Below are positions 1 to 40,923 of a stretch of 64,000 bases of DNA, one piece after another; position 1 is the first letter of the stretch, and each line of letters starts with the position of its first letter. The notes under the pieces are model-generated. The model saw nothing but the letters and a program-made list of their open reading frames with translations. It did no database searches and had not been told where the DNA came from. The DNA comes from Elusimicrobiota bacterium (GTDB lineage: Bacteria > Elusimicrobiota > Elusimicrobia > UBA1565 > UBA9628). The position numbers and the translations under genes were made by a program. The stretch lies in NCBI GenBank assembly GCA_030696455.1, contig JAUYSH010000043.1, positions 1-64,000 on the forward strand, given 5' to 3'.

Positions 1-784
1 AGTCCGCCTTCTTCCACAAAACCGGCTCCGTCCCCTCCGACAGCCGGGGCTGGGCCTCCGACTACTCCCGCTTCGCCGACGTCCTGCGCCCGGCCTCGGT
101 CGCCGACGACATCACCGTCGCCATCGAGTACCACTGCTCCCCGGTGGGCCGCTCCCGCATCGATGTCCTCTTAGCCGGCAGCGACGGCCGGAACGACAAC
201 GCCCTCATCATCGAGCTCAAGGCCTGGGACACGGCTTCCGCAGCCCCTTTCTAACGGCGTGTGGAAGGGGCACTTCCTCGCCTTATGGCTCGGTCGTCCC
301 CCATCGAGAACATGGTCCTCTCCCCCATCGGCGGCGGCACGGTCAAGCAGCACCCGAACCTGCAGGCGCGCCAGTATAAGGGCATGATCCTGCGCTTCAA
401 CCAGGACATCCTCGAGAAAGGCGTTCAGCTGCACCCGTCCGCCTACCTCTTCAATCTCTACCGGCGCGATCCCGAGCCGCTCGAGGACGCCCGCTATCAA
501 GACCTCCTCTCCGAGTCCCGGCTGTTCCTCGCCAACGACGCGGCCCCGCTCAAGGCCTACCTCGAGCGGCTGGTGCCCCGCAAGGCGAAGAACGACATCC
601 TCTTCCTTCTCGAGCACGGGAAATGGCGGCCGGCGGACGAGCTCATCAGCCGGGTGGGCAGCATGCTCGAGGGCAACGAGGAGTTCACTCTCATCGACGA
701 GCAGGACGAGGCCTTCCGCATCATCCGCCACCAGGTCCTCGGGTGAGGAGGACCGTTCCAAGCGCCATGTCTTCGTGGCGCCGA
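1..784 (+). pseudogene. Truncated DUF2075-type nuclease/helicase remnant (N-terminal part)
   Basis: The reading frame enters from outside the window (third frame). It encodes a PD-(D/E)xK-like domain with SRIDVLLAG followed by ALIIELKAWD, the usual N-terminal nuclease of DUF2075/Schlafen-like helicase proteins. The frame is kept through a 53-bp repeat insertion at 243-295, but the insertion brings a TAA stop at 252. After it the protein resumes (PIENMVLSPIGGG and on to MLEGNEEFTLIDEQDEAFR). A one-base shift near 746 then ends the frame just before the expected Walker A, and homology stops near 784. It is a broken gene without its ATPase. The next part of the family (Walker A region) reappears at about 5,790-5,910. 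Family assignment is from motif memory, not a search. Confidence 0.6.
243..295 (+). repeat. 53-bp stem-loop repeat, copy 1
   Basis: This segment matches 46103-46155 at 48 of 53 positions. It starts with a 7-bp stem (GCCCCTT paired with AAGGGGC, 15-nt loop) followed by a conserved tail ending GGCTCGGTC. Relative to copy 2 the second base pair of the stem is changed on both sides (C-G here, T-A there), a compensatory change. It sits inside the DUF2075 remnant without changing its frame but adds a stop codon. The host sequence reads naturally (DTAS then PIEN) if about 57 bp are removed, so it looks like an insertion. Confidence 0.65.
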
Positions 785-3113: not shown

Positions 3114-4952
3114 CTAAAGCGCGTCGAGAGACTTCATGGCGGCCCGCATCTTGCTCACGAAGGGTGACTCCGCGCCGTGCGTCATCACGAGCTCATGGGT
3201 CGCCCGCGTCATGGCGACATACAGCAGCTTTGCCTCGTCGCCCGGCTCCTCGCTGTGCGCGAAAGGCGCGCCGACGCCGGGGATGCACACCAGCGGGAAC
3301 TCGAGGCCTTTGCTGGCGTGCATGGTCACGACCGCCACGCCGTTCTGGCCCGGCACGAAGGCATGCGTCGCATCCGGCATCTGGAACGGGACCCCCTTCC
3401 GGGAGAACGCCCGACCTACCTCCGCGCCGATGCCCCGGTGGCGGCAGATCACGGCCATGTCGCTCCACGGGGTGCCGTCCTTATTGGCCTCATAAAGAAG
3501 GCCGGCGAAGTAGTCGGCTTCGGCCTGAAGGGTCGGGAACTCGATGAGAAGCGGCTTGGGGCCGCGCCGGCCGGCGCTCATCGGCTGGACGGTCGGGGCG
3601 AACTCCTCCTCCTCGTCTTTGGGAGACAGAAGCTCGTCCGCGAAGGCCCGCGCGACCGCGAGAATCTCCCGCGTGTTCCGGTAATTCAGCTTCAGGATCG
3701 TCGTGCGTCCTTTCGCCTGGACGCCGACGCTGGAGAATGAGAACCTAAGCTTCTTCTTGCCGCCGTAGATCGACTGGGCATCGTCATAGAGAACAAGCAA
3801 GGAGTTGCTGTTCGGGTGGATCATCTGGACGACGAGCTTGAACCACTCCGGCTTGAAGTCATGACCCTCGTCGATGAGCACCGCGTCGTACTGCGCGGCG
3901 GGGATCAGGTTTTTGCCGACGGAATGAATCACCTTATCCACCATCGCCGCAAAAAAGGCGTCCATATCAGTATTCGGCGGGGGCAGGCCCGCGTTATAGG
4001 TCTGCAGTTGTCGCCGGCACCAGGCGTGGAAGCTCACGACGGTGACCTTATTCTGCAGCCCTCTGGCGGCCATCATGCCGCCGAGTTTGGCCGCCAACGC
4101 CTTGTTGTAGCAGAGCACAAGGATCGGCCGCGAGCACGCCTTGGCCAGGTGCTCGGCGCGAAAGCCCAGGATCAAGGTCTTCCCCGAGCCGGCGACACCG
4201 TGGATGACCCGGTGACCCTCACCGAGGCTTCGCGCCAGCTGTTCCTGCTGAAGGTCCATGACCCGAATAAGGTCCGGAATCTCGACAACCTTCTGCGTGA
4301 AATCCTCGAACAGACTTGTTTGGGCGGGAATCCGGATTTCCGGGAACATGTGCCAGCGGATCCGGTCGATCTGAGGCAAAGAAAGCTTGATAGCGAACCG
4401 GACCGGGAACATGTCCCACAGGCGCTTCTGGAAGGCCTCAGGATCGACCGTCTCCGTCATCTCGTCCTGGCAGATGACCAAGTGGGAGGGGATCGCCTCC
4501 CCGAGCCGGTTATCTTCGAACTGCTTCCGGGTTATGCTCGTCAAGACGACGCCATGGCCATAGGGAAAAAGAGGCTTCCCCCGGTGTGGTCCGTCGCGCA
4601 ATACCAATTGCGGGTCCTGCTCCATCCGATTGGTGACGGCAAACATATACTGACGAGCTTGCTCGATAGGATTGGGGACTTGCTTGACGGTCCCGGAGGG
4701 GCAGATAACGACATTACTCTTGTCGATGCTCTGGATCGTGGAAATCTTCCAGTCCTTCACCTCGAGGACCAAAAGGCCGCGGCCGGGATGGAAGATGACG
4801 AAATCCGGATGGAGGGTCCGGTGGCCTATGGAAACGTCATACCAGCACAGGTAATCGTCTTCGAGCTTGTCTTCCAGGCGCTGGGCGAGGCGCCGTTCTC
4901 CCGCCTGCATGCGGGGGCCGCATGCGCCGATAGCTGGTATTAAAGTCGCCAT
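3114..4952 (-). CDS. NERD nuclease domain fused to UvrD-like superfamily 1 helicase
   Basis: A 612-residue two-domain protein. Residues 1-130 form a NERD nuclease-like domain with HPDFVIFHPGRGLLVLEVKDW (Asp50, Glu64, Lys66, a PD-ExK arrangement). Residues from about 235 form an SF1 helicase: Walker A GVAGSGKT (252-259), DEGHD as motif II, NYRNT for motif IV, VVTMHASKGLEFP and LLYVAMTRATHELV as motifs V and VI. Such fusions are thought to process foreign or damaged DNA and are common in defence regions. It follows the DUF2726 gene by 16 bases and is probably cotranscribed with it. The start ATG at 4952 keeps the NERD domain whole. Confidence 0.85.
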   Translation of the reverse strand: MATLIPAIGACGPRMQAGERRLAQRLEDKLEDDYLCWYDVSIGHRTLHPDFVIFHPGRGLLVLEVKDWKISTIQSIDKSNVVICPSGTVKQVPNPIEQARQYMFAVTNRMEQDPQLVLRDGPHRGKPLFPYGHGVVLTSITRKQFEDNRLGEAIPSHLVICQDEMTETVDPEAFQKRLWDMFPVRFAIKLSLPQIDRIRWHMFPEIRIPAQTSLFEDFTQKVVEIPDLIRVMDLQQEQLARSLGEGHRVIHGVAGSGKTLILGFRAEHLAKACSRPILVLCYNKALAAKLGGMMAARGLQNKVTVVSFHAWCRRQLQTYNAGLPPPNTDMDAFFAAMVDKVIHSVGKNLIPAAQYDAVLIDEGHDFKPEWFKLVVQMIHPNSNSLLVLYDDAQSIYGGKKKLRFSFSSVGVQAKGRTTILKLNYRNTREILAVARAFADELLSPKDEEEEFAPTVQPMSAGRRGPKPLLIEFPTLQAEADYFAGLLYEANKDGTPWSDMAVICRHRGIGAEVGRAFSRKGVPFQMPDATHAFVPGQNGVAVVTMHASKGLEFPLVCIPGVGAPFAHSEEPGDEAKLLYVAMTRATHELVMTHGAESPFVSKMRAAMKSLDAL

Positions 4953-4968: not shown

Positions 4969-5634
4969 CTAAGTCGGGCGCGGAGCCCAACGGCTCACCT
5001 GCTCCCCGTCCGACCCTTCTTTTAGGCCAAGAACGTCCCAGCGAATCTTTGCGGCGTCCGGCTTTCGGGAAACATGCCAACGGATGGTTTTCAGGCCGGC
5101 CTCTTTTAACATCTCATCTCGTTTGGCGTCTTTCGCGGGATCACGATGGCTGGAGTCGTCGAGCTCGATCACCGCGACGATGTCGAAGTTCTGGCTGCAC
5201 ACCATGAAGTCCGCGACCTTCTGCTTCATCATCGCCATGGTCCCGAAATTCTCCTTGCGATCCCCTCCCTCGGTGTAGAGAAATTGGCTGCAGGCGACCT
5301 GGGACAAGACGATGTGGTCGGGTAGGGCCTTAACAAGGCGGCGAAACAGTTCTTGCTCGGCCTCGGTGAGCGGCGACTGCTTCGAATGAAAGCGCGCTGA
5401 TCTTTCAGGTCCCGCCAGGAATCGATCGCGAAACGATTCGACCCTGCCCCCAACGAAGGCCAGGAACTTCAACTTCGCATAGAGCACGAGCACCGCACCG
5501 GCGACACCAATCAACGCAAAAACAAGGACCACCGATAGAAGGGAGAACACCGAAGGGACTACCGACTTCGCCGGCTTCGTTGGGGCCTGCTTTTGAGTGG
5601 AGGACTGCTGAAAGAAAGGGGTAAATCTGGCCAT
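4969..5634 (-). CDS. Membrane-anchored DUF2726 protein (PD-ExK-like)
   Basis: A 221-residue protein with one transmembrane segment (VPSVFSLLSVVLVFALIGVA and on, about residues 26-52) and a C-terminal DUF2726 domain: LTEAEQELFRRLVKALPDH, then KVADFMVCSQ, IVAVIELDDSSH and AGLKTIRWHV. DUF2726 belongs to the restriction-endonuclease-like fold; the D(F)...ELD pattern is the likely active-site region. The domain would face the cytoplasm if the N-terminus is outside or looped. It lies immediately upstream of the NERD-helicase gene. Substrate unknown. The start is the first ATG that gives the complete membrane segment. Confidence 0.7.
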   Translation of the reverse strand: MARFTPFFQQSSTQKQAPTKPAKSVVPSVFSLLSVVLVFALIGVAGAVLVLYAKLKFLAFVGGRVESFRDRFLAGPERSARFHSKQSPLTEAEQELFRRLVKALPDHIVLSQVACSQFLYTEGGDRKENFGTMAMMKQKVADFMVCSQNFDIVAVIELDDSSHRDPAKDAKRDEMLKEAGLKTIRWHVSRKPDAAKIRWDVLGLKEGSDGEQVSRWAPRPT

Positions 5635-5739: not shown

Positions 5740-5910
5740 CCTTCTTCGCTATCGTATCCATCCGCAGCATCCGCCAACAGCCCTCGACGAAGAGGTCCAA
5801 GCGCGACGTCTTCGTGGTCGAGGGTGGCGCCGGCCACGGGCAAGTCCGTCATCGCGGTGCGTTTGCTGGCCGAGACTCTGATGAAGAAGCGCGATGGCGT
5901 TCTTCGTGGC
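5740..5910 (+). pseudogene. DUF2075 Walker A fragment (decayed)
   Basis: A short stretch reads KRDVFVVEGGAG, then after a one-base insertion TGKSVIAVRLLAETLMKKRD. This is the Walker A segment expected to follow the truncated DUF2075 protein at 1-784. The sequence at 5796-5817 matches 757-778 at 20 of 22 bases, so the same gene position occurs on both sides of the 0.78-5.8 kb block. The fragment ends at the attC-like site at 5911. From 5635 to about 5740 no gene is seen. Confidence 0.5.
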
Positions 5911-5967
5911 GCCGAACGCTTAGCAGAGCGGCGGGCGCAGCCCGGCCGCTCAAGCGTCTGGTTCGGC
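5911..5967 (-). other. attC-like recombination site, downstream end of the cassette
   Basis: On the minus strand the site opens with GCCGAAC and closes with GTTCGGC, exact complements corresponding to R'' and R' boxes. Inside are ACGCTT/AAGCGT and AGCGG/CCGCT arms with unpaired extra bases on one side, then a GGGC/GCCC tip. This is the imperfect palindrome of integron attC sites, with the crossover G/TT at 5917/5916. The stop codon of the preceding gene (5950-5952) lies inside the site, as usual in gene cassettes. The fourth box base is G/C rather than the consensus pyrimidine/purine. Confidence 0.65.
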
Positions 5968-6795
5968 AGGCCGTCTATCGGGATGTGCTTGCCAATAATC
6001 TTCGAGCGCCCCAAACCCCGCCGGCACATGTAGCCAGCCGTTATCTTCGGGAGTGAATGCAAAGTCAGCATACTCTTCAGGCTCTGCGGGCTGCGGGGTT
6101 GTCTTACCCAAGTACCCGTAGAACAGGTGATTAATCTTGCAACCCGACACATGCCCTCTTAGCTCGTGCCAGCGAGCATCCTCATCATAGCCCTCTTCGC
6201 TAAGAGAGCTACGCTCAAAACCCCACACTTCGCATTCAGCTTGAAGTACGCCGCGCCCCATCGCAGTGAAATGCTCCTTAGTGAAGTACTGTTGCGGATC
6301 AATTTCGGACCCAAGAACCACATAGCAATCGAGAACGATTTCCAGCAAGGTCACAAAATGCTGTCGGCACACTGAAACAATATCTTGATGCTCTAATGCC
6401 GGGATTCCGAGTCGATCATCAAAGAAATACTCCGCTTTATCCCCATGGAAAGTGCCGCCGCGGATAGGATAAGGACCGCCGTGAACGTGGTCGTTTCGCA
6501 AATCAAGAAGATATTTGGCAACGGGATCACTTTGCAGGCGCTCTCTATGCGACAGATACCAGGACTCAAAATTAGGGATGTCCTTGAATTGCTGTAGCGC
6601 AAGTGTTGTCGTTCTAGAAGCCGAGAGATACGCGCTCAAGTAGCATTGAAACGCGAATATATCCGTGCCCGCTTTGGCCATAGCGGCGAGAAAGAGCTCG
6701 GCTTCGGCCGTCTTGTGGTCGACTGTATCGAAGGTGTGTTCCATATAGACGGAGATATTTTGGCACATCCACAGCGCCAGCCTGTCCTTCGGCAT
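5950..6795 (-). CDS. Cassette-borne protein with HEPN-like RNDHVH motif
   Basis: A 281-residue, mostly helical soluble protein of unknown function. LLDLRNDHVHGG (about residue 100) fits the R-x4-H signature of HEPN RNases and is preceded by long helices, which suggests but does not prove an RNA-cleaving or nucleotidyl-transfer role. Base composition is lower in GC than the flanks. The gene fills the space between two attC-like sites and its end lies inside one of them, so it is a classic one-gene integron cassette. An ATG at 6801 would straddle the crossover point; the ATG at 6795 (MPKDRLAL) lies just inside the cassette and is preferred. Confidence 0.6.
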   Translation of the reverse strand: MPKDRLALWMCQNISVYMEHTFDTVDHKTAEAELFLAAMAKAGTDIFAFQCYLSAYLSASRTTTLALQQFKDIPNFESWYLSHRERLQSDPVAKYLLDLRNDHVHGGPYPIRGGTFHGDKAEYFFDDRLGIPALEHQDIVSVCRQHFVTLLEIVLDCYVVLGSEIDPQQYFTKEHFTAMGRGVLQAECEVWGFERSSLSEEGYDEDARWHELRGHVSGCKINHLFYGYLGKTTPQPAEPEEYADFAFTPEDNGWLHVPAGFGALEDYWQAHPDRRPAEPDA

Positions 6796-6848
6796 GAACA
6801 TACGAGCTGAGCGGCGTGCAAAGCCCGGCCGCTCTAGCGCGGTTCGGT
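6791..6848 (-). other. attC-like site at the upstream end of the cassette
   Basis: On the minus strand the boxes are ACCGAAC (R'') and GTTCATG (R', joining the next cassette), separated by GCTAGAGCGG and CCGCTCAGC arms and a CCGGGC/GC-rich tip. About 26 bases match the site at 5911-5967, including GAGCGGCCGGGCT. The two sites are in the same orientation and define an 882-bp cassette (5917-6798). R' does not match its own R'' fully, which is normal because those bases belong to the following cassette. Confidence 0.6.
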
Positions 6849-6939: not shown

Positions 6940-8508
6940 ATGACTGACGCCAAAGAGACGGAGCGGGCTGAGCTCCATAAAACCATTTGGCGCATCGCCA
7001 ACGACCTGCGCGGCAGCGTAGACGGCTGGGATTTCAAGACCTATGTGCTCGGCATGCTGTTTTACCGCTTTATCTCGGAGAACCTGTCGGGCTACCTGAA
7101 CGAGCACGAACGCAAGGCTGGCCATAAGAACTTCGACTATACCGCCTTGAGCGACAAAGACGCCAAGCGCGGTCGCGAGACGACTATCGACGATAAGGGG
7201 TTTTACATCTTACCGTCCCAGTTGTTCGCGAACGTACGCAAGCGCGCCCGCACCGACGCCAACCTCAATGAGACTCTCGCCAAAGTCTTCAAGGCCATAG
7301 AAAGCTCGGCCCAGGGTACGGAGAGCGAGGACGACTTAAAAGGGCTATTCGACGACCTGGACGTCAACAGCGCCAAGCTTGGCCCCACTGTGGCTAAGCG
7401 CAATGAAAAGCTGGTCAAGCTACTGGACGCCATCGGCGACCTGCCGCTGGGCTCCGTACCGGGCGCCAGCATCGACCTTTTCGGCGACGCCTACGAATAT
7501 CTCATGCAGATGTACGCCTCCACCGCCGGCAAGTCCGGAGGTGAGTTCTACACCCCGCAGGAGGTCTCGGAGCTTCTCGCCCGCATCACCGTGGCTGGCA
7601 AGACTTCAGTCAACAAGGTCTATGACCCGGCATGCGGCTCGGGCTCTCTTCTACTGAAATTCTCCAAGGTGCTGGGGCCGGGCAAGGTCCGGCAGGGCTT
7701 CTTCGGCCAGGAAGTCAACCTCACCACCTACAACCTTTGCCGCATCAACATGTTCCTGCACGACGTCGGTTACGAGAAGTTCAACATCGCCCACGGCGAC
7801 ACTCTGACCGATCCCGCGCACATGGATGACGAGCCATTCGAGGCCATCGTCTCAAACCCCCCGTATTCCATCAGGTGGGAAGGCGACTCCAACCCGGTCC
7901 TCATCAATGACCCGCGCTTCGCCCCCGCCGGAGTTCTGGCGCCCAAGAGCAAGGCTGACCTGGCCTTCACCATGCACATCTTAAGCTGGCTCGCCACCGA
8001 CGGCACGGCGGCCATCGTAGAGTTCCCGGGCGTACTGTACCGCGGCGGCGCGGAAGCAAAGATCCGCCAATATCTCATCGACAACAACTATATCGACGCC
8101 GTCATCCAGCTTCCGCCAGACCTTTTCTTCGGCACCACCATCGCCACCTGCATCATAATCCTGAAAAAGAGTAAGCGCGACAACAAGACCCTGTTCATCG
8201 ACGCTTCCGCCGAGTTCGTCCGCAGCGGCAACAAAAACAAGTTGACCAAACAGAACCAGGCAAAAATCCTGGCCGCCTTCATTTCGCGCAAGGACACCGC
8301 ACACTTCGCCAAGCTGATAGATAATAAGGCCCTCGAGGAAAACGGCTACAACATCTCGGTCTCTTCATACATCGAGCATAAGGACACGCGCGTGGCCATT
8401 GATATCAAGGCACTGAACGCGGACATCGCGCGCATCGTCAAGCGCCAGACCGAACTTCGCAAGCAGATAGACGCGATCGCAGCTGATTTGGACGGAGATC
8501 GGGCGTGA
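6940..8508 (+). CDS. hsdM: Type I restriction-modification methyltransferase subunit HsdM
   Basis: A 522-residue N6-adenine methyltransferase. An N-terminal helical domain (LHKTIWRIANDLRGSVDGW) is followed by the catalytic domain with SAM-binding DPACGSGSLLL (about 229-239) and catalytic NPPYSIRW (motif IV). GEFYTPQEVSELL just before motif I is typical of the family. It forms a 2:1 complex with HsdS that methylates the target and joins HsdR for cleavage. Length matches EcoR124-type subunits. The stop overlaps the GTG start of hsdS (GTGA at 8505-8508), giving tight coupling. Only about 90 bases separate the gene from the divergent integron cassette. Confidence 0.95.
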   Translation: MTDAKETERAELHKTIWRIANDLRGSVDGWDFKTYVLGMLFYRFISENLSGYLNEHERKAGHKNFDYTALSDKDAKRGRETTIDDKGFYILPSQLFANVRKRARTDANLNETLAKVFKAIESSAQGTESEDDLKGLFDDLDVNSAKLGPTVAKRNEKLVKLLDAIGDLPLGSVPGASIDLFGDAYEYLMQMYASTAGKSGGEFYTPQEVSELLARITVAGKTSVNKVYDPACGSGSLLLKFSKVLGPGKVRQGFFGQEVNLTTYNLCRINMFLHDVGYEKFNIAHGDTLTDPAHMDDEPFEAIVSNPPYSIRWEGDSNPVLINDPRFAPAGVLAPKSKADLAFTMHILSWLATDGTAAIVEFPGVLYRGGAEAKIRQYLIDNNYIDAVIQLPPDLFFGTTIATCIIILKKSKRDNKTLFIDASAEFVRSGNKNKLTKQNQAKILAAFISRKDTAHFAKLIDNKALEENGYNISVSSYIEHKDTRVAIDIKALNADIARIVKRQTELRKQIDAIAADLDGDRA

Positions 8509-9740
8509 GCCGCATAAATAAGCTCATCACCAAGCTCTGCCCGAAAGGCGTGGAGTTTAAGAGTATCGGGGAGATCGCGGATTGCTACGGCGGGGCGACG
8601 CCGGCATCTGGAATGTCGGCCTATTGGGAAAACGGAACCATCCCATGGATGAGCTCGGGCGAAGTTAACAAGGGAACGGTACATGTCACTGACAAACAAA
8701 TAACGCAAGCCGCCTACGACTCTTGCAGCACGAAGATGGTGCCTTCGAATGCGGTGGTCATCGCACTAGCTGGGCAAGGAAAGACTCGAGGAATGGCCGC
8801 CAGGACTCGGCTCGCGCTCTGCACAAATCAATCACTATGCTCAGTAGTCTGCAAAGAATCGATGAGCAGCGATTTTCTCTACCACTACCTCCAAACCCAG
8901 TATCACCAACTGCGCAGCGTGTCGTCCGGTGCTGGCGCGCGAGGCGGCTTGAATCTGCAAATGATTCGAGTCTATCGCATTCCCGTTCCGCCGCTTGAAA
9001 TCCAACGCGAAATCGTAAAAGTCCTTGATACATTTACGGAATTGGAAGCGAAACTCGAGGCCGAACTGGGAGCAAGACAGAAACAGTACAGGCACTACCG
9101 CGATTCGCTGTTGTCTTTTGAAGACTCCACCAAAAGAGAGGGGGTCCGGTGGGTGACTTTGAAAGAGGTTGGCGAGTTCACGCGCGGACGGAGATTCACC
9201 AACGACGATTTCGTGGAGTCAGGGATTCCGTGCATCCACTATGGCGAAGTCTACACCCACTACGGCCTATCCGCTACGGAAACAAAATCGTTCGTGCGAC
9301 CAGAACTGGCTCCGTCCCTTCGCATGGCGAAGACCGGAGATTTGATAATCGCAGGAACAGGCGAGAATGTCGAAGACATCGGCAAGGCTGTCGCGTGGCT
9401 TGGTAAGAGTGAAGTCGCAGTCCACGACGATTGCTACATCTTCAAGCATTCGTTGAATCCAAAGTATGCCGCCCATTTCTTTCAGTCCAGCCGGTTCAAC
9501 GAGCAGAAGGTCAAATATTCCGCAGGCGCCAAAATGATTCGGATTCAGAGCGAAGGCCTGCGAAAGATTCACGTTCCTGTCCCGACTCTTGAAGAGCAAG
9601 CCCGCATCGTTGCGATTCTCGACAAGTTTGATGCACTGACCAACGACCCCTCCACAGGTCTGCCCGCCGAAATAGCCGCGCGGCGCCAGCAATACGAGCA
9701 CTGCCGAGACCGTCTACTTACCTTCAAGGAAGCCGCGTGA
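8505..9740 (+). CDS. hsdS: Type I restriction-modification specificity subunit HsdS
   Basis: A 411-residue protein with two target-recognition domains, each followed by a helical spacer: TRD1 about 15-165, conserved IPVPPLEIQREIVKVLDTFT (about 165-184); TRD2 about 215-365, conserved VPVPTLEEQARIVAILDKFD (about 364-383). The TRDs read the two halves of a split DNA target and the spacers set the gap. GTG start overlaps the hsdM stop. Base composition in the TRDs is lower in GC than in hsdM, as expected for exchangeable specificity modules. Both TRDs appear intact. Confidence 0.92.
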   Translation: MSRINKLITKLCPKGVEFKSIGEIADCYGGATPASGMSAYWENGTIPWMSSGEVNKGTVHVTDKQITQAAYDSCSTKMVPSNAVVIALAGQGKTRGMAARTRLALCTNQSLCSVVCKESMSSDFLYHYLQTQYHQLRSVSSGAGARGGLNLQMIRVYRIPVPPLEIQREIVKVLDTFTELEAKLEAELGARQKQYRHYRDSLLSFEDSTKREGVRWVTLKEVGEFTRGRRFTNDDFVESGIPCIHYGEVYTHYGLSATETKSFVRPELAPSLRMAKTGDLIIAGTGENVEDIGKAVAWLGKSEVAVHDDCYIFKHSLNPKYAAHFFQSSRFNEQKVKYSAGAKMIRIQSEGLRKIHVPVPTLEEQARIVAILDKFDALTNDPSTGLPAEIAARRQQYEHCRDRLLTFKEAA

Positions 9741-12715
9741 GCAAACGCCCGCCCCGCTACGAGCCCATCGCGCTTTCCGACGAGAGCACGGTCGTCGCCG
9801 AGTTCATCCCGGAGAGCCAAGTCCGCGAGAAGGCCTACCAAAGTGAAGCAGACCTCGAACGAGACTTCCTCGAGCGCCTTGAGGCCCAGGGTTACGAGCA
9901 CCTCGCTATCCGCGTAGAAGACGATCTCATCAAGAACCTGCGCCAGCAACTTGAAGCGCTCAACGACATCAAGTTCTCGGACAACGAATGGGAGCGCTTC
10001 TTTAAAGAGAAGATCGCCGGAGCAAACGACGGCATCGTCGAGAAGACCGCGCGCATCCAGGAAGACCACGTCCAAATCCTCAAACGTGACGACGGCAGCG
10101 TCAAAAATATCTACCTGCTCAATAAAGAGCGCATTCACGCCAACCACCTCCAAGTCATCAACCAATACGAGGCGGAAGGGGAGCGCAAGAACCGTTACGA
10201 CGCGACCATCCTGGTCAACGGCCTTCCGTTGGTTCATGTGGAGGTCAAGCGTCGCGGCGTTGACATCCGCGAGGCCTTCAATCAGATAGACCGCTACCAG
10301 CGCGATAGCTTCTGGGCGGGCTCTGGTCTCTTCGAGTATGTCCAGCTCTTCGTCATCAGCAACGGCACCCTCACTAAGTATTACAGCAACACCGTGCGCG
10401 ACGGCCATTTGGCAGAGCTGCGCCGCGCGCGCGCGCGCAAGAAGACCTCGAACAGCTTCGCCTTCACGAGCTGGTGGGCCGATGGACGCAATAAGCCCAT
10501 CACAGAACTAGTCCATTTCACCAAGACCTTCTTCGCCAAACACACGCTCCTGAATGTCCTCACTAGGTTTTGTGTCTTCGACTCGGAACGCAAGCTCCTG
10601 GTCATGCGCCCCTACCAGATTGCCGCCACCGAACGCATCTTACAGCGCATCGCCACCTCCACCAACCATAGGCAGTTGGGCACGACCGCAGCCGGTGGCT
10701 ATATCTGGCATACCACAGGCTCCGGAAAGACACTGACCAGCTTTAAGACGGCGCGGCTCGCCAGCCGCTTGGATGGCCTCGATAAGGTGCTCTTCGTGGT
10801 CGACCGCAAGGACCTGGACTACCAGACCATGAAAGAGTACGACCGCTTCGAGAAGGGCGCGGTCGACGGGACCAACAACACGGCCAAGCTCAAGCAGCAC
10901 CTGGAAGATACGAGCTCCCGCATCATCGTTACGACCATCCAGAAGCTCAGCAAATTCGTCTCCAGCAACAAGAAGCATCCGGTTTATGACCAGCACTGCG
11001 TGGTCATTTTCGACGAATGCCACAGAAGCCAATTCGGCGACATGCACCTGGAGATCACCAAGGTCTTCAAGCGCTACCACCTCTTTGGATTCACCGGTAC
11101 TCCCATCTTCGCGGAGAACGCCCGCTCGGGCGGGCAGCAACGATTGCGCACCACCCAACAGGTCTTCGGCGACGGTCTGCACAAGTACACTATCGTAAAT
11201 GCAATCGACGACAAAAACGTCCTGCCATTCCGTATAGACTTCATCAACACCATCAAGGCCGCCCCGGGGATCAAAGACAAGAAGGTGCCCGCGATCGACA
11301 CAGAGAAAGCTCTGCTCTCTCCCAAGCGCGTGGAGCAGGTCGCTGCATACATTCGTGAACACTACGAACAGAAGACCAAGCGCGGGTTTAATTCGCTTTT
11401 CGCCACCGCCTCCATCGAGGCCGCCAGACGCTACTACGCCGAATTCAAACAACAGCAGGCGCAATTACCCAAAGGTCGTCGCCTCAAGATCGGCCTCATC
11501 TACAGTTTCGCCGCGAACGAGGAGAACCCCGACGGACTGCTTGGCGAAGAGGAGTTCGAGACGGCCGAGCTCGATAAGAGCTCCCGGGATTTCCTGGAAG
11601 GTGCCATCAAAGACTACAACACCCTGTTTAGCACGAACTTCGATACCGGCGAGAGATTCCAGAACTACTACAAGGACCTGTCCCAGCGCCTAAAGAATCG
11701 GGAGCTCGACATCGTGATCGTGGTCAACATGTTCCTGACAGGCTTCGACGCCGCCACGCTCAACACACTCTGGGCGGACAAGAATCTGCGCGCGCACGGG
11801 CTGATCCAAGCCTACTCACGCACCAACCGGATTTTGAACTCGGTCAAAACCTACGGCAACATCGTCACCTTCCGCGACCTGGAGCAAGAAACCAACGACG
11901 CCTTGGCCTTATTCGGCAACGAAGACGCCAAAGGCGTGGTCCTACTAAAGCCCTACGCCGACTATCACGCAGAGTACACGAAGCTCGTCGCCAAGCTCGC
12001 TAATGGCTTCCCTGCCGGCCAAGCGATAGTCGGCGAAGCGGCGAAAAAGGAATTCGCCAAACTCTTCGGTCAGATTCTACGCGTGCGCAATATTCTCACT
12101 GCGTTCGACGACTTCACAGGCGACGCGACTATCACAGAACGCGACTTACAGGACTACCAAAGTCTCTACCTGGACATTCACGCAGACCTACGCAGTGCTG
12201 CCAAAGCCGACAAGGAGTCCATCAACGATGACTTGGTATTCGAACTGGAGTTGGTCAAGCAGGTAGAAGTCAACGTTGACTACATCCTGCTGCTCGTTGA
12301 GAAGTACTTGAAGGCAAAGGACGCGAACGCGAAGGCGGAAATCCGCGCCGGCATCAACCGCTCCGTGGACTCAAGCCCCTCTCTGCGTGACAAGAAGGAC
12401 CTCATCGAGCAATTCGTGGACTCCGTATCCACGTCAAAGTCCCTGGACAATGCTTGGACCACCTTCATCGCCACCAAAAAGCGCGAGGAGCTTTCGCGCA
12501 TCATCGCCGAGGAAGGCCTCGACCCGGAGAAAACAAAGGCGTTCATTGCGGATGCCTTCCGCGACGGAGCTGTTCCAGTTACGGGCGTAGCCATAACGAA
12601 AATCCTGCCGCCCGCCTCCCGTTTCTCCGTGGACGGCGCCCACGCGATCAAGAAGCGGACGGTCTTAAATCGCCTGCTCGCCTTCTTCAGCCGATACTTT
12701 GGCCTCGGCGCATAA
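9737..12715 (+). CDS. hsdR: Type I restriction endonuclease subunit HsdR
   Basis: A 992-residue motor/nuclease. The N-terminal nuclease has Asp155, Glu169 and Lys171 (RYDATILVNGLPLVHVEVKR), the PD-ExK site. The SF2 translocase follows, with Walker A IWHTTGSGKTLTSF, DECH box VIFDECHRSQFGD, FGFTGTPIF, and later motif VI QAYSRTNRIL. The C-terminal helical region binds HsdM. It translocates DNA and cleaves far from the unmethylated site. The GTG start overlaps the hsdS stop (GTGA). All motifs are intact, so the system is probably functional. After it, 12716-12905 holds no gene. Confidence 0.95.
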   Translation: MSKRPPRYEPIALSDESTVVAEFIPESQVREKAYQSEADLERDFLERLEAQGYEHLAIRVEDDLIKNLRQQLEALNDIKFSDNEWERFFKEKIAGANDGIVEKTARIQEDHVQILKRDDGSVKNIYLLNKERIHANHLQVINQYEAEGERKNRYDATILVNGLPLVHVEVKRRGVDIREAFNQIDRYQRDSFWAGSGLFEYVQLFVISNGTLTKYYSNTVRDGHLAELRRARARKKTSNSFAFTSWWADGRNKPITELVHFTKTFFAKHTLLNVLTRFCVFDSERKLLVMRPYQIAATERILQRIATSTNHRQLGTTAAGGYIWHTTGSGKTLTSFKTARLASRLDGLDKVLFVVDRKDLDYQTMKEYDRFEKGAVDGTNNTAKLKQHLEDTSSRIIVTTIQKLSKFVSSNKKHPVYDQHCVVIFDECHRSQFGDMHLEITKVFKRYHLFGFTGTPIFAENARSGGQQRLRTTQQVFGDGLHKYTIVNAIDDKNVLPFRIDFINTIKAAPGIKDKKVPAIDTEKALLSPKRVEQVAAYIREHYEQKTKRGFNSLFATASIEAARRYYAEFKQQQAQLPKGRRLKIGLIYSFAANEENPDGLLGEEEFETAELDKSSRDFLEGAIKDYNTLFSTNFDTGERFQNYYKDLSQRLKNRELDIVIVVNMFLTGFDAATLNTLWADKNLRAHGLIQAYSRTNRILNSVKTYGNIVTFRDLEQETNDALALFGNEDAKGVVLLKPYADYHAEYTKLVAKLANGFPAGQAIVGEAAKKEFAKLFGQILRVRNILTAFDDFTGDATITERDLQDYQSLYLDIHADLRSAAKADKESINDDLVFELELVKQVEVNVDYILLLVEKYLKAKDANAKAEIRAGINRSVDSSPSLRDKKDLIEQFVDSVSTSKSLDNAWTTFIATKKREELSRIIAEEGLDPEKTKAFIADAFRDGAVPVTGVAITKILPPASRFSVDGAHAIKKRTVLNRLLAFFSRYFGLGA

Positions 12716-12905: not shown

Positions 12906-14132
12906 CTATGCTGCTGCGGGGGTTTCTGGGCGGGCTACCCACGCTCGATAACCGGTGCAATCATACCGCGCGGCCTTGAGCAGATCGATTGATTGGGAAA
13001 TCATCTTTTCAAGAACTGCAGGATCATCGGCCATCACTTGGTCGACATCGCGGGCTGTTAGCTGTTTCGCAATGATCTGCAACGCAAGAATCGCTTCTTT
13101 GGGCGGTTCGACGGGCGCAGCGATTGCATGTGGGCGGACTAGATGGGCCTTATCGGCCAGAGACGCTTGTATCGGGCTGAAGTGGAGACAAATCGAGAGC
13201 ATCTCCGGCTCAGCGTCGCCGCCGATACGATAATAGGCAATATCCCCAGCGGCAACTGCCCAGGCAGGTGTTGCTGAAATGAGTTTCCCGAGAATCCATT
13301 TACAGACCCCGACGCCAAAAAACTTCAGAAATTTAGATTTTGAGAGTAGCATCACCTGTGCTGGAGCTCGAGTTAACGCTTCCAGTTTGTGATCGAGTAA
13401 AGCCTCAAGCTGCTTTGTGAACTCGGGATTTGCGGTCATATTATCTTGGATAACGCCCCAAAGTTTTCGCGCATCCTCGTCATAGACGTCGTCGGGAGCT
13501 GTCCGTGTTGTGAGAAAAAGAACCCAAGGCTCAGTGCGGTTCTTAGTTTGAAGTTCCAGCAGCGCGTGAATGCCATCGTAGTAGGTCGGTACTTTTCGTT
13601 CTGGGCTCTGCTTCTTAGACGCAATTGAGTCGCACAGATCGATGTTTATCACGTCAAAAGTGCCAGCCTCAATTATCGCGGCGCGTGCAATTGTGTCCTC
13701 TTGCGCAACTAATTCGAGACGGGCGCTAACAACTCGCGATTTCGTTGAAATATTTGCGAGCCGGCTTACCTCATCTATCGAGATATTAAGTTGCGTGCCT
13801 TCTTTCTTTGGATCTTTGGTTGAAAAGCCGAGATATCGCAGGCTGAGTTTTTGGCGAACACACAACTCGTGAAGGACCCGAACGTCCAACAGGTCGTCGC
13901 CTGGCAAACTTAAATATTTGAGGGGGCGATCATCGCGGAACTTGATTCCCTTAAGAAGAATGCCAATTTCATGCAACCACTGGTACTTTCGAATCCATTG
14001 CTTCCTGGGTTTGTGCCAGGAAGAGAATTCGCGCTTTTCCTCCTCGTGACGCGGAACTTCGGGATAAATCCCATCGACAAGTGATTCCGAAGAAGCTTGA
14101 ACGGGTTTAGGAGACTGATCGGATTCAGTCAT
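12906..14132 (-). CDS. Unrecognised Rossmann-like protein in Dcm/GHKL/Vsr cluster
   Basis: A 408-residue protein that I cannot assign to a named family. Near residue 72 is YLSLPGDDLLDVRVLHELC followed by LRYLGF, and near 160 is FDVINIDLCDSIA. The spacing and hydrophobic-acidic pattern resemble motif I and motif IV regions of Rossmann-fold methyltransferases such as TcmP-type partners, but no catalytic motif is certain. SSWHKPRKQWIRKYQWL near the N-terminus is basic and aromatic and could bind nucleic acid. It overlaps the GHKL ATPase gene as ATGA (14129-14132) and is the last gene of a three-gene operon, so it likely acts with the ATPase and methyltransferase. Visibly AT-richer than the chromosome on either side. 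Confidence 0.6.
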   Translation of the reverse strand: MTESDQSPKPVQASSESLVDGIYPEVPRHEEEKREFSSWHKPRKQWIRKYQWLHEIGILLKGIKFRDDRPLKYLSLPGDDLLDVRVLHELCVRQKLSLRYLGFSTKDPKKEGTQLNISIDEVSRLANISTKSRVVSARLELVAQEDTIARAAIIEAGTFDVINIDLCDSIASKKQSPERKVPTYYDGIHALLELQTKNRTEPWVLFLTTRTAPDDVYDEDARKLWGVIQDNMTANPEFTKQLEALLDHKLEALTRAPAQVMLLSKSKFLKFFGVGVCKWILGKLISATPAWAVAAGDIAYYRIGGDAEPEMLSICLHFSPIQASLADKAHLVRPHAIAAPVEPPKEAILALQIIAKQLTARDVDQVMADDPAVLEKMISQSIDLLKAARYDCTGYRAWVARPETPAAA

Positions 14133-17691: not shown

Positions 17692-17778
17692 CGGAGAGGG
17701 TGGGATTCGAACCCACGGACGCTTTTACACGTCGCCAGTTTTCAAGACTGGTGCCTTAAACCGCTCGGCCACCTCTCC
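17692..17778 (-). tRNA. tRNA-Ser (anticodon UGA)
   Basis: The minus strand folds into a class II cloverleaf: acceptor GGAGAGG/CCTCTCC, D-arm GCCGAGCGGTTTAAGGC, anticodon stem CCAGT/ACTGG with loop CTTGAAA giving UGA, a long variable arm (CGACGT..GCGTC), and T-arm GTGGGTTCGAATCCCAC. Discriminator base is G, as required for serine. CCA is not encoded. Its 3' end points towards the defence cluster on the left, so it could be an integration site for that block. Confidence 0.95.
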
Positions 17779-40723: not shown

Positions 40724-40767
40724 CCGGCGACGTCAAACAGGCGGAAAACAGACGGTGCCAAACAGAC

Positions 40768-40848
40768 GGTGCCAGGCCTCCCATTATCCCATTACTCCCG
40801 AATAAAAACCTCGATTGAGAGTAATGGGATAATGGGAGGCCTGGCACC
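40768..40848. repeat. Long inverted repeat, GGTGCCAGGC family
   Basis: Perfect 30-base arms (left arm begins GGTGCCAGGCCTCCC) with a 21-base loop, 45 bases after dnaE. Just before it a 14-base unit ending CGGTGCCA is repeated in tandem (40747-40774). The outer 10 bases belong to the same GGTGYCAGGC family as 34349-34414. It may terminate dnaE transcription. The inner half of each arm is AT-richer than the neighbourhood. Confidence 0.85.
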
Positions 40849-40923
40849 TTTCTTCCTATGTTGCGCTTGTGACGCCAGGGTAAAATGGTTAGAATTCACA
40901 AGCTGTTTATATAAGGAGAGGGA

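Follow-up and report, generated by a model that had tools for sequence, protein, structure and literature searches.

Clusters of attC sites without an integrase are known as CALIN, and by default IntegronFinder 2.0 reports such clusters when they contain at least two attC sites (PMC9024848). Cassette insertions at attG sites in bacterial genomes are also known [Loot et al. 2024, as cited in PMC12901181]. With respect to cassette-borne proteins, an "integron cassette HEPN" family represented by PDB 3jrt has been described and was proposed to act as an RNase in stress or dormancy [Anantharaman et al. 2013, PMC3710099]. The HEPN motif corresponds to R-x4-6-H with a polar residue following the R and is located at the end of helix 3; in some HEPN families the H is replaced or lost (PMC3710099). 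A literature search found no publication on integrons in Elusimicrobiota.

Here, we discuss a single gene cassette in a 64,000-bp stretch of an Elusimicrobiota genome (4.0 Mb, 147 contigs), and this stretch is referred to as the window. The cassette is an already known kind of object; the host lineage is little described and the protein family that it carries is poorly described. The best overall explanation, which we regard as fairly likely when all of its parts are taken together, combines a true cassette, insertion at a secondary site, and a HEPN-like product.

The cassette and its attC sites

The cassette and its ends comprise the following features.

5911-5967, minus strand: attC site 1, 57 bp, the downstream cassette end (R'' at 5961-5967, R' at 5911-5917), matched by the covariance model.
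5917-6798, minus strand: gene cassette, 882 bp, from the TT of the upstream R' box (GTTCATG, 6793-6799) to the G of the downstream R' box (GTTCGGC, 5911-5917).
5950-6744, minus strand: cassette gene from its likely start, 264 amino acids, with the HEPN-like motif RNDHVH; close relatives start at the equivalent of M18.
6793-6848, minus strand: attC site 2, degenerate or partial (R'' at 6842-6848, R' at 6793-6799), recognized by a stem-only model match and by its likeness to site 1.

We hold with high confidence that this unit is a true integron gene cassette situated outside any integron. The preliminary description had proposed two same-direction attC-like sites flanking one gene, a unit of 882 bp, and a stop codon inside the downstream site, and each of these points is borne out. 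Both sites are present with a spacing of 883 bp and have the same direction, and their cores are identical at 30 of 35 bases; the 882 bp represent the distance between the G^TT cuts of the two R' boxes, while R'' and R' of site 1 enclose the stop codon (5950-5952). The attC sites are read on the minus strand and so is the gene, i.e., the orientation of the cassette gene is the attC orientation. The protein of 281 residues given earlier corresponds to an ATG at 6795; the true start, however, is probably at 6744 (264 amino acids), because the residue matching M18 is the first one in every close relative. Upstream of the gene, a promoter was looked for and none was found. The cassette gene was not found in the 58 relatives searched, and its GC3 of 0.55 is below that of the hsd and NERD helicase genes of the same region (0.62-0.81). 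Its absence from relatives and its lower GC3 fit a recent arrival.

On the minus strand, site 1 reads GCCGAAC-CAGAC-GCTTGAGCGGCCGGGC-TGC-GCCCGCCGCTCTGC-TAAGC-GTTCGGC. The R'' (GCCGAAC) and R' (GTTCGGC) boxes are complementary at 7/7 positions, and in the L''/L' stem two bases are extrahelical on the L'' arm, a T (position 15/16) and a C (position 23/24). The extrahelical positions are those found in the lineage's own attC sites, in keeping with the one-sided extra bases that had been noted in the inner arms. The exact R''/R' complementarity noted earlier holds for site 1 but not for site 2, where R'' (ACCGAAC) and R' (GTTCATG) pair at four of seven positions and the R' box is off consensus.

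An attC covariance model, which had been suggested as a check, was built from 39 attC sites in arrays of this genome and its relatives with the window sequences excluded. Thirteen of its 16 pairs show two-sided changes, and the two extrahelical bases correspond to its unpaired columns 16 and 23. In a search with every filter disabled, site 1 is the top match of the 64-kb window at 36.6 bits (E = 5.5e-8, or 3.4e-6 across the 4.0-Mb genome), a score to be read with the fact that the training sites consist of joined arms with the variable loop removed, which somewhat favors short sites. In negative-control DNA (50 kb and 26 kb), the highest score was 11.7 bits. Site 2 is the second-best match in the window and matches by its stem only, at 15.2 bits and with an E value (0.059 in 64 kb) that is not significant alone; the best interpretation is that it terminated at least one upstream cassette since lost. 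A strict Python scan for attC patterns missed the window sites, and relaxed Python scans served as a guide with the covariance model as the test. An Rfam scan of the window identified tRNA only. Elsewhere in the window, at 40757-40866, there is a long near-perfect inverted repeat (GGTGCCAGGCCTCCCATTATCCCATTACTC and its complement) with a short spacer, which is not attC according to the model.

Across the genome, 18 attC matches were recovered at E <= 1, site 1 included (16 further). The others include matches beside integrases on contigs C40, C117, and C54 and additional ones on C22, C33, C68, C130, C132, and C141. The window sites are 56-57 bp long vs 74-82 bp for the other attC sites in the genome. 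The sister species G001 and G015, on the other hand, have 58-bp attC sites with the same build as the window sites. In a four-sequence alignment of the window sites and those of G001 and G015, 89% of the cells pair, compared to 21-45% in slid controls, and the short sites of the sister species differ from the window sites by compensatory two-sided changes at three stem pairs. The shared short build and the compensatory changes assign the window sites to the lineage's own attC repertoire.

The lineage is rich in integrons. Three full integron integrases scoring over the TIGR02249 cut-off are encoded elsewhere in this genome, where a search for one had been advised, and the reported absence of an integrase from the 64-kb window is uncontradicted. 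Of the 58 genomes in the relatives search, 20 have one or more integron integrases and 31 have attC sites. At the three integrase loci (L018, L017, and L016), the integrase and the cassettes have the same direction and intI lies upstream of the cassettes, opposite to the arrangement in classical class 1 integrons. The same genome also carries single or paired attC sites without a nearby integrase match (L074, 4973-5046 on C22; L075, 6132-6210 on C141; L073, 4623-4950 on C33), and on C141 a cassette gene likewise ends inside attC. Large attC arrays are present in the sister species G010 (L062; C1, 2929606-2959691 and 3468162-3477650), which has 43 attC matches in its genome, apparently in two clusters, one of which adjoins an integrase gene with an in-frame stop (TAG).

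The cassette protein and its relatives

The cassette protein had been described as belonging to no recognizable family. In terms of profiles this stands, since no match was obtained in Pfam, NCBIfam, PADLOC, or PHROG (PHROG 19262 included), no known HEPN profile recognizes the protein, and sequence searches of the PDB gave no meaningful match. Intermediates, however, link it to a known phage protein. Relatives at approximately 30-35% identity are encoded on plasmids or contigs of Rhizobium, Methylobacterium, Herbaspirillum, and Roseomonas and on one viral contig; a pattern-based search of genome contigs returned none with the single protein and two with an alignment. The alphaproteobacterial relatives match PHROG 19262, i.e., lambda Ea47, and a Nocardia relative aligns to lambda Ea47, whose identity was confirmed, with 30% identity over 212 residues (E = 6e-25). 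As judged from these alignments, the family of the window protein includes lambda Ea47 through the Rhizobium and Nocardia intermediates. No attC sites were detected beside the plasmid, proteobacterial, and viral-contig relatives, and the family is not visibly cassette-borne there.

The motif RNDHVH, which the preliminary description reported as an R-x4-H HEPN signature, is present and conforms to the R-x4-6-H pattern. The signature is weaker than had been stated, as neither profile nor structure searches identified HEPN and the H is not general in the family. In an alignment of 12 members, the R and N of the motif RN-x3-[H/K] are invariant (12/12), while the last position is H in three (the window protein, Pseudomonas aeruginosa pF023, and the Arthrobacter sp. 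U41 plasmid) and K in nine, among them lambda Ea47. Structural modeling, likewise suggested earlier, was performed with AlphaFold2 and resulted in poor models, with pLDDT 36 without an alignment and 48 with a four-row alignment. A Foldseek search against the PDB with this low-confidence model (best pLDDT 48) gave noise only and no significant fold match. In the low-confidence model, a predicted helix ends with the motif and a hairpin comes next, and the helices and the motif position are compatible with HEPN.

On the basis of motif and predicted helices, a HEPN reading of the window protein is plausible, and there is about an even chance that the protein has RNA-cutting activity, which makes this step from protein to activity the weakest point of the overall explanation. 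Its role would then likely be that of a toxin or an abortive-defense RNase. In this scenario, the HEPN-like product with its RN-x3-H active-site motif would cut RNA when triggered and might function as a toxin or abortive-defense effector or as a dormancy effector. The competing view, to which we give a substantial but somewhat less than even chance, is that the protein is non-catalytic and HEPN-like, or an unrelated helical protein, for example one that binds nucleic acids or a phage protein like lambda Ea47. The K in place of H in nine of the 12 members, lambda Ea47 included, agrees with such a protein, as do the missing HEPN profile match and the poor structure models. It is less readily reconciled with the invariant R-N pair, with an H at HEPN spacing in three separate members, or with the motif position where a predicted helix ends ahead of a hairpin, which is compatible with the HEPN description in PMC3710099. 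The gene neighborhoods also speak against it: PIN-domain genes adjoin the relatives in Herbaspirillum, Paraburkholderia, and Arthrobacter (L025, L022, and L108), and methylase or restriction genes adjoin those in Rhizobium and Paraburkholderia. A more tentative suggestion, possible but on balance improbable, is that a single new HEPN-like RNase family, with either H or K at the catalytic position, unites the cassette protein with lambda Ea47 and the plasmid proteins linked to PIN genes.

The probable insertion point in a helicase gene

The cassette is part of a defense island, which covers approximately 1-21 kb of the window beside a tRNA-Ser gene (17692-17778). The island contains DUF2075 copy A, a HigBA-like pair, an IS110-like transposase gene, NERD-UvrD, DUF2726, the cassette, hsdMSR, an HSP90-like ATPase with a cytosine methylase, and McrBC, and parts of it are 97-99% identical to the relative G016. 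The features discussed here are as follows.

5-778, plus strand: DUF2075-type gene, truncated second copy (allele A), the last 303 bp of which are 98% identical to G016.
3114-4952, minus strand: NERD-UvrD helicase gene (Pfam NERD and UvrD; PADLOC NERD+UvrD, E = 5e-176).
4969-5634, minus strand: gene for a DUF2726 protein (Pfam), adjoining the cassette.
5758-5917, plus strand: fragment of a DUF2075-type helicase gene (allele B), cut at GCGCCGAA|C, with homology to G016, G001, and G029 ending exactly at GAAC/GAA.
6940-12715, plus strand: type I restriction-modification genes hsdM, hsdS, and hsdR, to the right of the cassette; hsdM was identified by N6_Mtase and HsdM_N, and hsdS and hsdR by position and sequence reading only.

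The name DUF2075-type comes from reading the sequence and not from a profile search. In the same island, a gene for 408 amino acids (12906-14132, GC3 0.51) is located beside the genes for the HSP90-like ATPase and the methylase; it has no Pfam or PADLOC match and is a possible third part of a defense system.

The allele B fragment is homologous to G016, G001, and G029 as far as GCGCCGAAC; read on the minus strand, this sequence is the R' box G^TTCGGC, and the homology ends exactly at the predicted crossover. In G016 and G029 the helicase gene is intact and runs straight through this breakpoint. Moreover, the six R' bases TTCGGC of site 1 are helicase codons of the host, which is what integrase-mediated joining to a secondary site would produce. 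We consider it likely that the cassette was inserted by an integrase at a secondary (attG-type) site. The host junction is at G^TT inside a gene that is intact elsewhere. On the far side host sequence does not resume: the distal half of the helicase gene is absent from the contig (C113), and the interval 6849-6939 matches no relative. With the far-side host sequence missing, the event is described as working like an attG insertion and not as a proven one.

In G001, the helicase gene (L099 3731, contig C306) is broken at the same nucleotide (G^TT) and joined to an antisense ORF6N-like gene near the contig end, and no attC is detectable at this breakpoint. The break in G001 may represent a second integrase event, and thus a hotspot, or plain microhomology. 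Because of this case, the breakpoint alone is no proof of cassette insertion.

In the proposed mechanism, one of the lineage's integrases would recombine the folded bottom strand of the cassette attC with GTTCGGC on the antisense strand of the DUF2075-type helicase gene. At least one further cassette would once have been present upstream, with site 2 as its end. This upstream cassette and the distal half of the helicase gene would then have been lost when the island was rearranged next to hsdMSR. The preliminary description had left the choice between an isolated insertion and the end of an array. This choice is narrowed in part: the left edge is a G^TT junction in the helicase gene, and site 2 resembles the terminus of one or more additional cassettes on the other side.

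Alternatively, the locus could be the decayed end of a resident integron array without an integrase (a classical CALIN), to which the helicase fragment was joined by a later rearrangement. The two same-direction attC-like sites imply that there were once at least two cassettes, attC clusters without a neighboring integrase match exist elsewhere in the genome (C33, C130, and C132), and the island is heavily rearranged, all of which would suit this origin. A later rearrangement, however, would have had to end the helicase homology at the exact R' crossover, with TTCGGC of R' being helicase codons, and the 57-bp attC is unlike the 74-82-bp sites of the resident arrays; we therefore regard a decayed array as unlikely. 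It is highly improbable, and we reject it, that the repeats are chance hairpins, transcription terminators, or REP-like elements around an ordinary gene: both sites do form strong GC-rich hairpins flanking a single gene, but neither hairpin carries a T-run, the core with fewer than two mismatches occurs nowhere else in the genome, the held-out covariance model gives E = 5.5e-8 with the extrahelical bases in place, and the sister species keep short attC sites with compensatory changes. Neither of the two outcomes that the preliminary description had named as refuting was therefore obtained, since an attC model does match and the repeats are not terminators found throughout the genome.

Comparison with known systems

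With integrase-mediated insertion at a secondary site as the preferred reading, the locus documents a cassette living outside integrons in an integron-rich lineage, with base-level evidence for insertion into a gene of a defense island. It shares with cassettes of integrons and CALIN an attC end with R and L boxes and extrahelical bases, a single gene in the same direction with its stop inside attC, and no neighboring integrase. It differs from CALIN in having one full-strength and one partial attC site, where the IntegronFinder default needs at least two. Like the attG insertions, as far as these are described in the citing paper, the window cassette meets host DNA at a G^TT triplet within a gene that is not part of an integron; unlike them, within the same limits of that source, it has two attC-like sites instead of one and lacks the far-side host sequence.

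A HEPN-type motif in a protein borne by an integron cassette is a feature in common with the 3jrt family. The window protein belongs to a different, uncatalogued family, and a profile search of PDB chains gave no match to 3jrt at E <= 10. With lambda Ea47 (PHROG 19262), the window protein shares the wider family, via the Rhizobium and Nocardia intermediates, and the RN-x3-[H/K] motif. Lambda Ea47 differs in its length (410 amino acids) and longer C-terminal part, in having K for H, and in being phage-borne. An unannotated family of plasmid and phage proteins that includes lambda Ea47 is tied to the HEPN motif, which provides a concrete test for a long-unexplained lambda gene. If these proteins did constitute one HEPN-like RNase family, the integrons of this lineage would use attG sites to place defense RNases directly into defense islands, and what lambda Ea47 does would become testable. 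Relative to the described systems, this locus adds a base-exact insertion site in a defense-island gene and connects a cassette gene with lambda Ea47 and the HEPN motif.
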